Origin: Embleya hyalina
GTDB lineage: Bacteria; Actinomycetota; Actinomycetes; Streptomycetales; Streptomycetaceae
Assembly (NCBI RefSeq): GCF_003967355.1
Contig: NZ_BIFH01000065.1
Span: 1 to 36,886 of the forward strand
Direction of reading: 5' to 3'
DNA: 36,886 bases
The notes beneath the pieces are model-generated. The model was given only the letters and a program-made list of their open reading frames with translations, was not told the origin of the DNA and made no database searches. Shown here in pieces: positions 13,705 through 27,960 of this stretch (positions within the stretch are counted from its first letter, which is position 1; each line of letters begins with the position of its first letter). Made by a program: the position numbers and the translations under genes.

Positions 13705-15404
13705 CCACACCCGAAAGCCCGCGGCCCCTCACCGGGCCCGACATCGTCCGGGCCACCCTGCGCCGCAACGTCGGCGCCATGGCCCGAGGCACCGTCCTCA
13801 TGGGCATGTACCAGGCCGGCGAGACCGCCTTCCCCATCGCGCTGGGTCTGATCGTCGAACACGCGCTGCGTGATCGCGGCCTCGCACCACTCGCCCTGGC
13901 GATCGTCGCGCTGGCCGTGATCAGCACGACCGTCTCGCTGTCGTGGCGGTTCGGCATGCGGGTGTTGCAGAAGGCCAACACCACCGAAGCACACCACTGG
14001 CGCGTGCAGGTGGCGGCCCGCGGACTGCGACCCGTGGCCGGGGGCGGCGACCTCAAGTCGGGCGAGGTGCTGACCATCGCCACCGACGACGCCGATCAGA
14101 CCGCCGACCTCGTCGAGGTGATCCCGGTGCTGATCGGCTCCCTGGTCGCGGTGCTCGTCGCGGCGATCGCCCTGGGCCTGGCCAGCGTGCCGCTCGGCCT
14201 GTTGGTGATCGTCGGGACCGCCGCGATCCTGGCGGTGATGAGCGTGCTGTCCAAGCGGATCGACGCCGGCACCCGCGAGCAGCAGGCCCACGTCGCACGG
14301 GCCGGCGCGAAAGTCGCCGACCTGATCACCGGATTGCGCCCGCTGCACGGTTTCGGCGGCAACCACGCGGCGTTCGCCTCGTATCGGGGGGTCAGCTCGG
14401 CGGCCCGGCGCCAGGCGATCGCGGTCGCGAGGGTCAACGGCGCGTACGCGGGCACGGCGCAGGCCCTGAACGCCGTGCCGGCCACCGCCGTGACGCTGAC
14501 CGCGGGCTGGCTGGCGTTCGAGGGTCGGATCGGCATCGGCACGCTGGTGATGGCCGTCGGCCTGGCGCAGTTCATCGTGGAACCGCTCCGGCTCTGCTCG
14601 AACATGCCCAAGTACGTGATGATCGCGCGCGCGTCGGCCGAGCGTATGGCGCTGGTGCTCGCCGCGCCCCCGGTCGTGCCGCCGCCGGCGGAGGAGCCCC
14701 CGGTCACCGGAGGCGGTCTCGACGTCGAGTCGGTCCGGTACGGATCGCTGCGCGAACTGTCCTTCCGGGTGCGGCCCGGCGAGTTCGTGGCCGTGGTCGC
14801 GCGCCGACCGGGCGCGGCGGCCGATCTCGTGGCGCTCCTGGCCGCACGCGTCCCGCACGACGCGTATCGGGGCACCGTGCGCCTCGGCGGCACCCCGATC
14901 GCCGACCTGTCGGTCGACACGATCCGCGCGCACATGCTGGTGAACCCCGGCAACGCGGAGATCTTCGCGGGCACCCTCCGCAGCAACATCGACCCGTCGG
15001 GCGGGGGGCGGCCGCTCGCGGAGGCCGTCGAGGCGTCCATGCTCACCGACGTCGTCGCCCTGCACCGTGACGGACTCGACCACGCCGTCCGCGACCGCGG
15101 CGCCAACCTCTCCGGCGGCCAGCGGCAACGGCTGTCCCTGGCCCGCGCGTTGGCGGCCGACGCCGAGATCCTGGTCCTGCCCGACCCGACGACCGCCGTC
15201 GACGCCGTCACGGAGCAACTGATCGCCCGCAACATCGCCACCCTGCGTCGGGGCCGGACCACGGTGGTGATCACGAGCAGCCCGGCGTTCTTGGACGCCG
15301 CGGACCGGGTCCTGATGCTGGACGAGGGCACGATCGTCGCCGAGGACACACATCGCAACCTGCTGGCCGGCAACGAGACCTACCGAGCGGCGGTATCGAG
15401 GTGA
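13701..15404 (+). CDS. ABC transporter permease-ATPase with degenerate Walker motifs (heterodimer subunit 2)
   Basis: A 567-residue half-transporter with about six membrane spans (residues 20-310) and an ATPase domain. Walker A is degenerate, VVARRPGAAADLV (about 365), lacking the GK(S/T) that holds phosphate. The expected Q-loop Gln is not seen (LVNPGNAEIFAGT). Walker B is LVLPDPTTAVD (about 491) without the catalytic Glu, and the switch His is replaced (ITSSP). The signature LSGGQRQR (about 469) is perfect. Together with subunit 1 it would form one working and one dead ATP site. ATG overlaps the bridging ORF's stop; a weak GGAAGAG stands upstream. Its last 25 bp overlap the convergent macro-domain gene. 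Confidence 0.88.
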   Translation: MTTPESPRPLTGPDIVRATLRRNVGAMARGTVLMGMYQAGETAFPIALGLIVEHALRDRGLAPLALAIVALAVISTTVSLSWRFGMRVLQKANTTEAHHWRVQVAARGLRPVAGGGDLKSGEVLTIATDDADQTADLVEVIPVLIGSLVAVLVAAIALGLASVPLGLLVIVGTAAILAVMSVLSKRIDAGTREQQAHVARAGAKVADLITGLRPLHGFGGNHAAFASYRGVSSAARRQAIAVARVNGAYAGTAQALNAVPATAVTLTAGWLAFEGRIGIGTLVMAVGLAQFIVEPLRLCSNMPKYVMIARASAERMALVLAAPPVVPPPAEEPPVTGGGLDVESVRYGSLRELSFRVRPGEFVAVVARRPGAAADLVALLAARVPHDAYRGTVRLGGTPIADLSVDTIRAHMLVNPGNAEIFAGTLRSNIDPSGGGRPLAEAVEASMLTDVVALHRDGLDHAVRDRGANLSGGQRQRLSLARALAADAEILVLPDPTTAVDAVTEQLIARNIATLRRGRTTVVITSSPAFLDAADRVLMLDEGTIVAEDTHRNLLAGNETYRAAVSR

Positions 15405-15925
15405 GACCCGGCCGGCGGCCGTAGCGAGGCGAGCGCCGCCTCCAGCACGTCCCGCCCTTCGCGGTCGAACGCCACCAGCCGCACCCGCTCGACGGCACTC
15501 GACGCCCCCACGACGGTCGCCACCGCGATCCGCGCGGCCGCCTCGGCCGGAAATCCGTACACTCCGGTGGCGATCGCCGGGAACGCCAGGCTCCGCACGC
15601 CCAATTCGTCCGCGACCTCGAGGCAGCGCCGGTAGCACGAGGCCAGGATCTCGGCCTCGCCGAAGTCACCGCCCTCCCAGACCGGCCCCACGGTGTGGAT
15701 CACGTGGCGCACCGGCGGATACAGGTCGAAGGCCGGCGTCGCCATCGCGTCGCCCGGATCGCACGGCCCGATCTCGGCCCCCGCCGCCGCGAGCCGTGGA
15801 CCCGCCGCCCGGTGGATCGCGCCGTCCACGCCGCCGCCACCCATCAACGACTCGTTCGCCGCGGTCACGACGGCGTCCGTGTCCTGGAGCGTGATGTCAC
15901 CCTGCACGATCTCGATCACGGTCAT
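15380..15925 (-). CDS. Macro-domain protein (O-acetyl-ADP-ribose deacetylase type)
   Basis: A 181-residue single macro domain. The ADP-ribose loops are clear: VVTAANESLMGGGGVDGAI (about 20-38), RHVIHTVGPVW, and LAFPAIATGVYGFP. This fits the YmdB/MacroD-like class, which hydrolyses O-acetyl-ADP-ribose or removes ADP-ribose from proteins, in the cytoplasm. ATG at 15925 begins the domain directly (MTVIEIVQGDIT); the frame is open upstream but without domain sequence. It lies 92 nt downstream of the Cse2-like gene on the same strand, so the two may share a transcript. Its 3' end overlaps the convergent ABC gene by 25 bp. Confidence 0.92.
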   Translation of the reverse strand: MTVIEIVQGDITLQDTDAVVTAANESLMGGGGVDGAIHRAAGPRLAAAGAEIGPCDPGDAMATPAFDLYPPVRHVIHTVGPVWEGGDFGEAEILASCYRRCLEVADELGVRSLAFPAIATGVYGFPAEAAARIAVATVVGASSAVERVRLVAFDREGRDVLEAALASLRPPAGSHLDTAAR

Positions 15926-16017: not shown

Positions 16018-16599
16018 TCAGCCGTCGTGGTGCGGGGGTCGGGGGGTCAGGTCGTGGAAATCCTCCTCCCAGCGGTTTCGGGTGTAGCGGCGACCGACGG
16101 GGGTTTCCCACCACAGCAGGTCCTTGGCCAGGCGGACATGGTCCAAGGCGATCCGGCGGCGGCCCAGTTCGGCCATCAACGGGTGCAGGCCGGTGGCCAG
16201 TTCGTCCAGGGTCTCGGCCTCGACCGCGTCGTCGAAGCGGGTGCGTTCGCGGCGTTGCACCAGGGTGTGGTCGGGCGCGATCAGTCGGGCCAGGTCCCGG
16301 CAGGCCGCGCCGATCGAGGTGCCGTCCGGGCGGTGCAGACCGCCGGCGAGGGAGCCCTGGTGCACCGCGTACAGGGCGATCGCGTGTCGCACGGCCCGGG
16401 TGGCCAGGCGGCGTTCGAGGGTGACGGGCAGATGGACGGTGATCGCCTCCACGGCGGGCACGGGCGGGTCGGACGCCGCGGCCGGCAGGAATCGGGCGGC
16501 CAACCGGCGATCACCGTGGACCCGCGCCAGGAACGTATGCAACGCGTGCTCCCACGGCGCCCAATACGCGGAGACGCGCGGTATCGGCGGCGCGGTCAT
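16018..16599 (-). CDS. Isolated Cse2/CasB-like protein (type I-E Cascade small subunit)
   Basis: A 193-residue, all-alpha, Arg-rich protein. It matches the layout of Cse2/CasB: HAIALYAVHQ in the first bundle, an LHRPDGTSIGAACRDLAR segment, RRERTRFDDAVEAETLDELATGLHPLM, and a C-terminal LDHVRLAKDLLWWETP...RNRWEEDFH. The last part lines up with Thermus Cse2 (IDFARLLDDLLRW...ARWAREYY). Cse2 forms the dimeric belly of Cascade and binds the crRNA and displaced DNA strand. No cas1, cas2, cas3, cse1, cas5, cas6 or cas7 and no repeat array is in the window, so it is an orphan here. ATG 16599 lacks a clear ribosome site; a longer open frame reaches 16686. It is followed by the macro-domain gene. Confidence 0.8.
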   Translation of the reverse strand: MTAPPIPRVSAYWAPWEHALHTFLARVHGDRRLAARFLPAAASDPPVPAVEAITVHLPVTLERRLATRAVRHAIALYAVHQGSLAGGLHRPDGTSIGAACRDLARLIAPDHTLVQRRERTRFDDAVEAETLDELATGLHPLMAELGRRRIALDHVRLAKDLLWWETPVGRRYTRNRWEEDFHDLTPRPPHHDG

Positions 16600-16983
16600 C
16601 GTGGTCGATTCGTCGTGAGGCGCATGATCGATTCCTCGGGGTCGACGCCCGGACGGGCGCCGGGGTGGGCGGGTGCGGTCATCCATCGGAACGGACCGGG
16701 ACGCGCCCGTCCGGGCGGTCCCGCTCCATCACCGTTATGACGAACCGGAGCGCCGTTTTGTGACGGACGGGCGTACCCGAAACCACCGCGCGCCCCGGGC
16801 CCGCCCGCCTCCGGGGCCGGCATCACCCCCGAAGTCCCGGCGCCGCCGCGCCGGACGCCCGCCCGGTGTGCTTCGCACGGCGTTCGTGAGGTGTTCAGCG
16901 TGGCGCCGTCGGTGTGCCCCATGCTTCGATCCGAGGGCGAGTGCGCCGCTCGCCGCCGATCCCCGAGCAAAGGACTGGCCATC
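16600..16983. other. Intergenic region between the Cse2-like and lamin-tail genes
   Basis: 384 bp between divergent genes, so it should hold both promoters. I find no -35/-10 pair, operator or RNA that I can support, and no CRISPR-like repeat. Confidence 0.4.
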
Positions 16984-18429
16984 GTGCGAAAGCGTTTGCC
17001 TGGAAGAGTGCAACTCGTCGTAGCCGCCCTGTCGTTCGTCGCCCTGGGACTCTCGGGCGCGCCGGCGTCCGCGCAGCCGCGGACACCCGCGCAGACACAG
17101 CCGCAGACACAGCCGCAGACCGCCGGACAGGCCGTCGTTCGGATCAACGAGGTCGAGTCGAACGGCGGCACCCCGGGCGACTGGGTCGAGTTGGTCAACA
17201 CCGGTTCGGCCGCGGCGGACCTGTCCGGGTGGGTCGTCAAGGACAACGACGACTCGCACACCTACCCGATCGCCGCCGGTACCTCGCTGCCCGCCGGCGG
17301 CTACCTGGCGCTCGACGTCGAGACGTCCTTCGGTCTCGGCAGCTCCGACTCCGCCCGGCTGTTCGGGCCCGGCGGCACCACCCTCGTCGACTCGTACAAG
17401 TGGACCACGCACGCCACCACGACGTACGGCCGCTGCGCCGACGGCACCGGATCGTTCGCCACCACCGCCGCGCCGACCAAGGGCGCGCCGAACTCGTGCG
17501 CCGCCTCGTGGGCCGCGTGGCCCGGCGCCGGCACCGTCACCGTCGCCGACGGCTCGAACGTGTTCGGCACCAACCTCAGCGGCCTCTCCTTCCAGGACGC
17601 CGGCGTGTTGTGGGCGGTGAAGAACGGTCCGGGCACGCTGTACCGCCTCGTGCCGGACACCGGCGGCAAGTGGCGGCCGGATCCGGCCGGCGGCTGGGCC
17701 TCGGGCAAGGCGCTGAACTACCGCGACGGCACCGGCGATCTCGACGCGGAGGGGGTGACCTTCACCCCCGACGGACTGTTCGTCGCCACCGAGCGCGACA
17801 ACGACGACAGCGACGTCAGCCTGCCGAAGATCGCCCGCTTCGACACCTCCTCGACGGCCGGCGCACTGAACGCGACCGCCGAGTGGAACCTGACCGCCGA
17901 CCTGCCCGCGGTGGACGCCAACAGCGGCCTGGAGGGCATCACCTGGATCCCCGACACCTTCCTCACCGGACACGGCTTCCGGGACGAACACACCGGCGCG
18001 GCCTACGACCCGGCCGCCTACCCCGACCACGGCAGCGGGTTGTTCTTCGTCGGCCTGGAGGCCAACGGCACGGTGTACGCCTACGCGCTCGACCGGACCG
18101 GCGGCGGATATCACCGGGTCGCCACCTTCGCGAGCGGCTTCCCGGCGGTGATGGAGCTGCAGTTCGAGCCGGCGACCGGTCGGCTGTGGGCGGTCTGCGA
18201 CAACACCTGCCAGGGCCGGAGCACCACCCTCGGCATCGACGCCCAGGGCCGGTTCGCGATCACCGCCCGGTACAACCGACCCTCGGGGTTGTCCGACTAC
18301 AACAACGAGGGCTTCGCCATCGCCCCGCAGACGGCCTGCGTGTCCGGCCGCAAGCCGGTCGTCTGGTCCGACGACGACAACGACGGCGGCCACGCGCTGC
18401 GGGCGGGCACGCTGAACTGCACGCCGTAG
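16984..18429 (+). CDS. Secreted lamin-tail-domain protein with beta-propeller-like region
   Basis: A 481-residue exported protein. A basic start and hydrophobic segment end in APASA-Q, a signal peptidase I site near residue 30. A Gln/Thr/Pro linker follows, then a lamin-tail domain (about 50-155; VRINEVESNGGTPGDWVELVNTG, with GWVVKDNDDSHTYPI). The C-terminal 300 residues have repeated strands such as DAEGVTFTPDGLFVATERDN and GLEGITWIPD, resembling a propeller of the phytase or SdiA-regulated type, with many Asp that might bind Ca2+. In bacteria such domains occur on secreted hydrolases or surface proteins; the substrate is unknown. GTG follows AAAGGAC at 8-9 nt. It ends at a strong bidirectional terminator. 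Confidence 0.85.
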   Translation: MRKRLPGRVQLVVAALSFVALGLSGAPASAQPRTPAQTQPQTQPQTAGQAVVRINEVESNGGTPGDWVELVNTGSAAADLSGWVVKDNDDSHTYPIAAGTSLPAGGYLALDVETSFGLGSSDSARLFGPGGTTLVDSYKWTTHATTTYGRCADGTGSFATTAAPTKGAPNSCAASWAAWPGAGTVTVADGSNVFGTNLSGLSFQDAGVLWAVKNGPGTLYRLVPDTGGKWRPDPAGGWASGKALNYRDGTGDLDAEGVTFTPDGLFVATERDNDDSDVSLPKIARFDTSSTAGALNATAEWNLTADLPAVDANSGLEGITWIPDTFLTGHGFRDEHTGAAYDPAAYPDHGSGLFFVGLEANGTVYAYALDRTGGGYHRVATFASGFPAVMELQFEPATGRLWAVCDNTCQGRSTTLGIDAQGRFAITARYNRPSGLSDYNNEGFAIAPQTACVSGRKPVVWSDDDNDGGHALRAGTLNCTP

Positions 18430-27441: not shown

Positions 27442-27948
27442 TCACCGATCGGGATCGGCGGCCGCCAACACCTCGGCCAGCCGGGTCAACGCGGCGACGA
27501 CCTTCTCGCGGTCCTCGCCGAGCCCGGCCAGCAGTTCGACCTCACGGGCCAACAGGCGCGGGAAGAGCGCGTCGACGACGGCCCGGCCCGCGTCGGTGAT
27601 GACCACCTCCACGGACCGGCGATCCACGGCGCTGGGCGTACGTCGGATGTGACCGCGCTCCTCCAGCCGGGCCAGGCTCTTGCTCACCGCCACACGCGAG
27701 ATGCCCAGATTCGCCGCGAGCCGCCGGGCGATCACCGGCCCCGGCGCGTGCCGGAGCGGAATGAGCAGGTCCAACTCCGGTGGTGTCACCGGCGCCGTCT
27801 CGTGCAGCGGACGCAACGCCCGTTCGTGCAACAGGTGGATCCGCCGGATCAGCCCGACGATCTCCATCGGCGAGGTGTCCAGCCCGGGGTGCTCCGCCGC
27901 CCACCGCGCCCGCACCTCCGCCAGGGGAAGCAGCACGTCCACTCCCAT
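27442..27948 (-). CDS. MarR-family regulator
   Basis: A 168-residue winged-helix regulator. The DNA-reading part is VIARRLAANLGISRVAVSKSLARLEERGHIRRTPSAVDRRSVEVVITDAG, with the wing DRRS. Helical ends give the dimer. It lies upstream of the cupin gene and may be translationally coupled to it. ATG 27948 (MGVDVLLP) is chosen; a TTG 9 nt earlier is possible and no clear ribosome site is seen. An inverted repeat 13 nt upstream of the ATG is a likely autoregulatory operator. MarR proteins usually respond to phenolics or oxidants; the ligand is unknown. Confidence 0.9.
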   Translation of the reverse strand: MGVDVLLPLAEVRARWAAEHPGLDTSPMEIVGLIRRIHLLHERALRPLHETAPVTPPELDLLIPLRHAPGPVIARRLAANLGISRVAVSKSLARLEERGHIRRTPSAVDRRSVEVVITDAGRAVVDALFPRLLAREVELLAGLGEDREKVVAALTRLAEVLAAADPDR

Positions 27949-27960
27949 GATTGTCAACCG

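Follow-up and report, generated by a model that had tools for sequence, protein, structure and literature searches.

Cse2, also called CasB or Cas11e, is the small subunit of type I-E Cascade and is a two-domain, all-helical protein (PMC3727216). Several described systems bear on a Cse2-like protein standing by itself: (i) In type IV-B, a Cas11 filament binds heterogeneous small RNAs, a precedent for Cas11 in a complex dealing with RNAs that are not crRNA (PMC8730458). (ii) AcrIB3 is an anti-CRISPR that mimics a Cas protein, Cas5 (PMC13131331). (iii) Isolated or orphan cas loci hold cas genes away from arrays and other cas genes (PMC5294841). (iv) In an anti-CRISPR study, expressing a Cas11 in the absence of Cas7 reportedly gave an unstable protein (PMC12883894), which counts against a Cse2 core working alone.

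The gene that we call the orphan lies in a 36,886-nt stretch of Embleya hyalina DNA, referred to as the window, from contig 65 of a 12.05-Mb assembly in 78 contigs (genome G000). Its protein aligns with canonical Cse2 over residues 50-187, but unlike canonical Cse2 the Embleya orphans have a conserved, non-aligning stretch of about 49 residues at the start, a leader of their own, no operon, and no array nearby. Like AcrIB3, the orphan stands alone and is homologous to, but diverged from, a Cascade subunit; unlike mimics of that type (PMC13131331), it sits on a host replicon in four species of one genus, has no viral relatives that we could find, and is present in a genome where Cas7e was not found. 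It shares with isolated cas loci (PMC5294841) its distance from arrays and other cas genes, and differs from them in that it consists of one small-subunit gene, on which purifying selection acts. Type IV-B has Cas7-like subunits (PMC8730458), whereas no partner of the orphan is coded nearby. Our literature search, with most subscription journals outside its scope, found no paper on a stand-alone Cse2.

The orphan gene and its surroundings

The initial annotation called the gene a Cse2/CasB-like one with an intact frame, and both points hold. The frame is uninterrupted from start to stop (Table 1), its start codon backed by an MTAP beginning common to all four copies described below. The protein passes the curated cut-offs for Cse2/Cas11e membership in both Pfam (PF09485 Cse2, E 1e-17, 65.3 bits against a cut-off of 24.6) and NCBIfam (TIGR02548, 2.5e-13, 50.5 bits against 28.5), and it also matches the PADLOC Cas11e model (1.2e-13) and PDB 4h79, a Cse2-family chain of solved structure (1e-7). 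The fit over the whole length that had been claimed is not borne out, because significant matches start anywhere from residue 42 to 68 depending on the model: the Pfam match covers residues 62-182 (profile positions 32-137 of 137), the TIGR02548 match residues 42-182, and an hhalign profile-profile alignment with eight canonical Cse2 proteins residues 50-187 (98.9% probability, E 3.3e-17).

In that alignment residues 1-49 have no counterpart in the eight canonical proteins, and neither the Pfam nor the TIGR02548 profile recognises Cse2 in the first ~42 residues. The N-terminal part of the Cse2 profile, where most canonical rows aligned carry an R-x-G motif, is unmatched in the orphans, and the match begins at profile position 30-32 in three orthologues; late starts (beyond position 5) also occur in at least two family rows among the matches listed (G361 at 15, G018 at 34). 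As far as profiles can tell, the orphan retains the C-terminal part of Cse2, and its N-terminal part is not recognisable. Identity is 25-34% to 12 typical canonical Cse2 proteins and 19-20% to three divergent ones; columns invariant across 19 aligned sequences include orphan L76, G93, G97, L138, L157 and W177. Net charge ranges from +2 to +8 in the orphans and from -5 to +9 in other Cse2 rows, so the orphans are no more basic. A structure prediction from two input sequences was all-helical at a pLDDT of 39.9, a confidence that makes it uninformative.

Table 1. Features at and around the orphan gene, in positions of the window
Feature	Position	Strand	Remarks
Stand-alone Cse2/Cas11e-like gene (the orphan)	16018..16599	-	ATG at 16599, stop ends at 16018, 193 aa; residues 50-187 Cse2-homologous, residues 1-49 conserved among the four Embleya copies
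Macro-domain gene	15380..15925	-	Best NCBIfam match O-acetyl-ADP-ribose deacetylase, with the family assignment (Pfam, NCBIfam) made on 163 of 181 codons; 92 nt downstream of the orphan; not counted as part of the unit
Lamin-tail-domain/phytase-like gene, divergent	16891..18429	+	Start codon uncertain; flank only
Leader mini-ORF, 9 codons	16596..16625	-	TGA overlaps the orphan ATG (ATGA); longer in-frame starts exist
GAGGA, ribosome-binding-site-like	16633..16637	-	Before the mini-ORF; read from sequence
Leader block	16720..16768	-	TCACAAAA ... TTCGTCATAA ... GGAGCGGG; common to the orthologues at both genomic places in differing degree

The solitude of the gene, also claimed initially, was confirmed within the window. 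When the eight type I-E proteins encoded elsewhere in this genome were used as tblastn queries, only the Cse2-like gene was significant (best other E 0.06), and no 18-mer occurs in three or more copies at the 50-85 nt spacing of CRISPR-like repeats. The Pfam scan, which covered 17 frames of the window, showed ordinary chromosomal genes, among them ABC transporters, apolipoprotein N-acyltransferase, regulators and MFS transporters. PADLOC, run on 12 window proteins, reported besides the Cse2-like one a MarR-type regulator (27442-27957, minus strand; Pfam MarR), whose weak matches to models of Csa3 and CARF (E about 2e-5) most probably reflect a shared winged-helix domain.

Upstream of the orphan lies a mini-ORF whose stop overlaps the orphan start in all four copies (window, L041, L042, L061). 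Counted from the nearest ATG it has 21 codons in G004 and 9 in each of the other three. Its frame is open far upstream, with other candidate starts, and any start followed by A yields the overlap; long open frames with alternative starts are common in such GC-rich DNA. Translational coupling of the mini-ORF with the orphan is possible on this layout. AAGGA replaces GAGGA in E. scabrispora and NBC_00888, and the leader block, possibly a promoter region, is least conserved in NBC_00888. Judged by these sequence features, the orphan gene looks like a self-contained unit.

Orthologues, selection and phylogeny

Four Embleya genomes carry the orphan. The copies in G004, E. scabrispora (G020) and Embleya sp. 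NBC_00888 are 93%, 73% and 71% identical to that of the window, and the frame is open in all four; G031, one of five Embleya examined and assembled in 1650 contigs, gave no match. The neighbours in G004 are those of the window (ArsR, Lnt, the lamin-tail gene, the macro gene and two ABC genes). In E. scabrispora and NBC_00888 the orphan occupies a second genomic place, where it lies downstream of a sensor-kinase-like gene and faces a conserved set of genes, one of them sigma-factor-like (both names given by eye). G000 and G004 have this set too, with no orphan beside it (L065, L066). The NBC_00888 copy, the single orthologue in the plasmid collection, lies on a 5.73-Mb linear replicon that PLSDB types as mobilizable. 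A tblastn search of 20-kb regions enclosing the orthologues of G004 and G020 gave no cas gene; for the NBC_00888 region, the comparison covered gene homology with the other orphan loci.

These neighbourhoods bear on the macro-domain gene, which had been correctly placed on the same strand just downstream of the orphan and had prompted speculation about an ADP-ribose link. Such a partnership in an ADP-ribose pathway would agree with the near-identical spacing in two genomes, 92 nt in G000 and 91 nt in G004. The pair does not recur in E. scabrispora or NBC_00888, where no macro homologue was found around the orphan. The ADP-ribose idea is not supported, because the macro gene adjoins the orphan in only two of four carriers; we dropped the partnership, the neighbourhood not being conserved, and regard it as extremely improbable.

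No orthologue was seen outside Embleya among 297 family genomes and 394 class genomes, the class sample including some genomes of the same family and, of Embleya, only G000. Among the 297, 60 match the orphan at E 1e-5, 57 of them outside Embleya at 31-39% identity; all 15 of the non-Embleya loci that were read (L046-L060, from 14 genomes) are in type I-E cas operons. The match in G202 starts as early as residue 24 and lies in a normal operon. At E 1e-8, 31 of the 394 class genomes match, and apart from the window none extends into residues 1-42.

A 2024 study by Katz et al. reportedly concerns viral cas genes. A mobile-element or phage origin of the orphan was rejected: it has no match in 50,697 phage records or in PHROGs, and pattern-based scans of IMG/VR gave no relative. 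Plasmid records matching the orphan number 26, of which 25 are from Streptomyces at <60% identity; among the 20 of 26 listed, most are annotated casB.

Purifying selection across the four species bears out the initial view that the gene has been kept. The dN/dS ratio is 0.30-0.38 in all six orphan pairs. Neutral simulations, run with the counted numbers of differences, reached the observed value in 2 of 500 runs for window against G004 and in 0 of 500 each for window against G020, window against NBC_00888, and G020 against NBC_00888. Five flanking genes compared between G000 and G004 give 0.15-0.39, with the orphan at the upper end; it is therefore constrained, but not unusually so. The most conserved part of the protein is residues 1-37 (31 of 37 positions invariant), as against 13 of 38 in residues 38-75 and 78 of 109 in residues 76-184. 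In a tree of 23 Cse2 rows (fragments L046, L052, L069, L071 and L073 left out), whose deep branching is not resolved and in which certain other rows sit on long branches too, the orphans form one clade (99/100) with a stem of 2.1 changes per column and tips of 0.03-0.22.

The initial annotation had offered three fates for the gene, the first being the last trace of a type I-E system. Isolated cas loci can indeed be relics (PMC5294841), and the family holds one, in G059:C1, where cse2 lies beside a broken cse1. That a lost operon left the orphan as a non-functional relic is nevertheless very improbable: all four copies are open, the dN/dS range is one that 0 to 2 of 500 neutral simulations reach, the window has no other cas remnant, and the clade sits on a long independent branch. 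Comparison with the G059 locus, a true remnant, likewise disfavours it.

Type I-E systems in Embleya and its family

A genome-wide search for cas genes and arrays, as had been proposed, did find a complete type I-E operon, and found it on another contig. Contig 34 (C34) carries cas3, cse1, cse2, cas7, cas5, cas6e, cas1 and cas2 in that order, followed by arrays with 61-nt periodicity. The cas2 model TIGR01573 has no match in the genome, and the C34 cas2 is named from its position and from 46-80% matches at the same position of other operons. The initial annotation had allowed that an intact operon nearby might explain the orphan as its displaced member. The C34 operon is complete and has an intact Cse2 that shares 28% identity with the orphan across the alignment (35% over residues 55-186), so the orphan is not a displaced member of it; the tree also places the orphan clade apart from the C34 Cse2. 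By its sequence, the orphan is a second, distant Cse2 paralogue in its genome.

Beyond the C34 operon, CRISPR repeat blocks are numerous and lie in either orientation; interrupted by gaps, they extend over more than 12 kb (L003:18871-19991 and L004:17-11796) and include several repeat variants, GGAGCATCC, GGAACATCC and GGACCATCC. Upstream of the operon is a direct repeat array of 33-nt period (L003:2693-3451).

A resident operon with arrays makes it possible, in this genome, that the orphan serves a Cascade coded elsewhere, the second suggested fate, as a spare and normally interchangeable Cse2. The operon has its own Cse2, from which the orphan is far diverged, the canonical N-terminal part is missing from the orphan, and Cas7e was not found in G004; we consider such a role improbable.

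The G004 result comes from a genome-wide search of its eight contigs, restricted to Cas7e and Cse2, in which Cas7e (PF09344) gave no match; the other three of the four Embleya genomes searched have Cas7e. Normal Cascade is therefore not expected in G004. Among 394 family genomes Cse2 occurs in 177 and Cas7e in 177 (sets compared by eye), with Cse2 and no Cas7e in two, G004 and G131, and Cas7e and no Cse2 in G282 and G319. The G131 cse2 is at a contig end, adjoining a cse1-like frame.

We also note some peculiar Cse2 loci: (i) G004 has a second solitary Cse2-like gene, a different protein of 249 aa (Pfam 40.7 bits) at L045:9756-10502 (G004:C5:131755-132501), about 6 kb from a pPIWI_RE gene (L045:974-3769); it was found in this one genome and in none of the 393 other family genomes searched. 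(ii) L074 (G059:C1:5593000-5612900) is a decaying type I-E locus with a cse1-like gene in two frames beside an intact cse2, no Cas7e match (another contig of G059 has one) and, by eye, transposase-like frames downstream. (iii) Two side-by-side Cse2 matches occur on one contig each in G087, G108, G344, G370, G376, G191, G012 and G071, apparently within one open frame of about 400-580 aa, as tandem or fused small subunits. (iv) The double Cse2 match of G080 is two adjacent pieces beside a Cas7e gene.

Possible roles of the orphan

The main rival to a job outside CRISPR-Cas is a trans-acting alternative or decoy subunit, which would replace the native Cse2 in type I-E Cascades and tune or block them, as AcrIB3 does for Cas5; it could restrain autoimmunity or be an anti-CRISPR that was captured. 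An altered subunit would be expected to look like this, with homology limited to the Cse2 core and an N-terminal part that has changed. The 25-34% identity to the 12 typical Cse2 proteins compares with 38% between AcrIB3 and Cas5 (PMC13131331), a full I-E operon is at hand in the same genome, and the reported instability of Cas11 without Cas7 (PMC12883894) would favour a role inside Cascade. Against this, the orphan has no match in phage records or PHROGs and no relative in the pattern-based scans of IMG/VR, its neighbours among the Pfam-scanned window frames are ordinary chromosomal genes, and it is kept in G004, where Cas7e was not found. The Cascades of G000 and G020 moreover differ strongly (their Cas7 proteins are 35% identical), and the orphans, at 73%, do not. 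We take this role to be unlikely, if a good deal less so than the alternatives weighed above.

The orphan has probably acquired a function of its own, because it is intact in at least four species with a different front end, one of them without detectable Cas7e. Among the three suggested fates, a new nucleic-acid-binding job fits best, though it is unproven. We lean, with slightly more belief than doubt, towards a Cas11e/Cse2 paralogue kept for a job that is independent of Cascade and probably involves nucleic-acid binding; binding by the Cse2 core is what the known role of the family would lead one to expect. Of the readings, a domesticated small subunit is the most economical; the observed basis for it is the gene's homology, solitude, conservation and selection, the similarity of the leaders, and the genome without detectable Cas7e.

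The following course of events can be proposed. In the Embleya lineage, an old type I-E small subunit would have been captured as a unit of one gene and its own leader, would have left CRISPR-Cas, and would be maintained for a job that needs no Cascade. The retained helical Cse2 core would be the nucleic-acid-binding body, and the near-invariant residues 1-37 may supply self-assembly or contact with a partner, in place of the contacts to Cas7 and Cse1. Acting as a regulator or a protective factor, the protein would then need no guide to bind single-stranded DNA, RNA or R-loops, and the changed N-terminus might, speculatively, be an answer to the instability of Cas11 without Cas7. G004 may have lost its Cascade recently, a point against independence. 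The most specific form of the proposal, a fully domesticated, genus-level and CRISPR-independent Cas11 with a newly evolved N-terminal interaction segment, its own and possibly coupled leader, and the role of a general nucleic-acid-binding regulator, is put forward tentatively, with the balance of our opinion just on the side of doubt.

The orphan is one small gene of a soil actinomycete genus, and its role is directly testable. A Cse2 core preserved by selection where Cas7e was not found is a natural test of that core acting alone, and the orphan is also a case to compare with the anti-CRISPRs that mimic Cas proteins.
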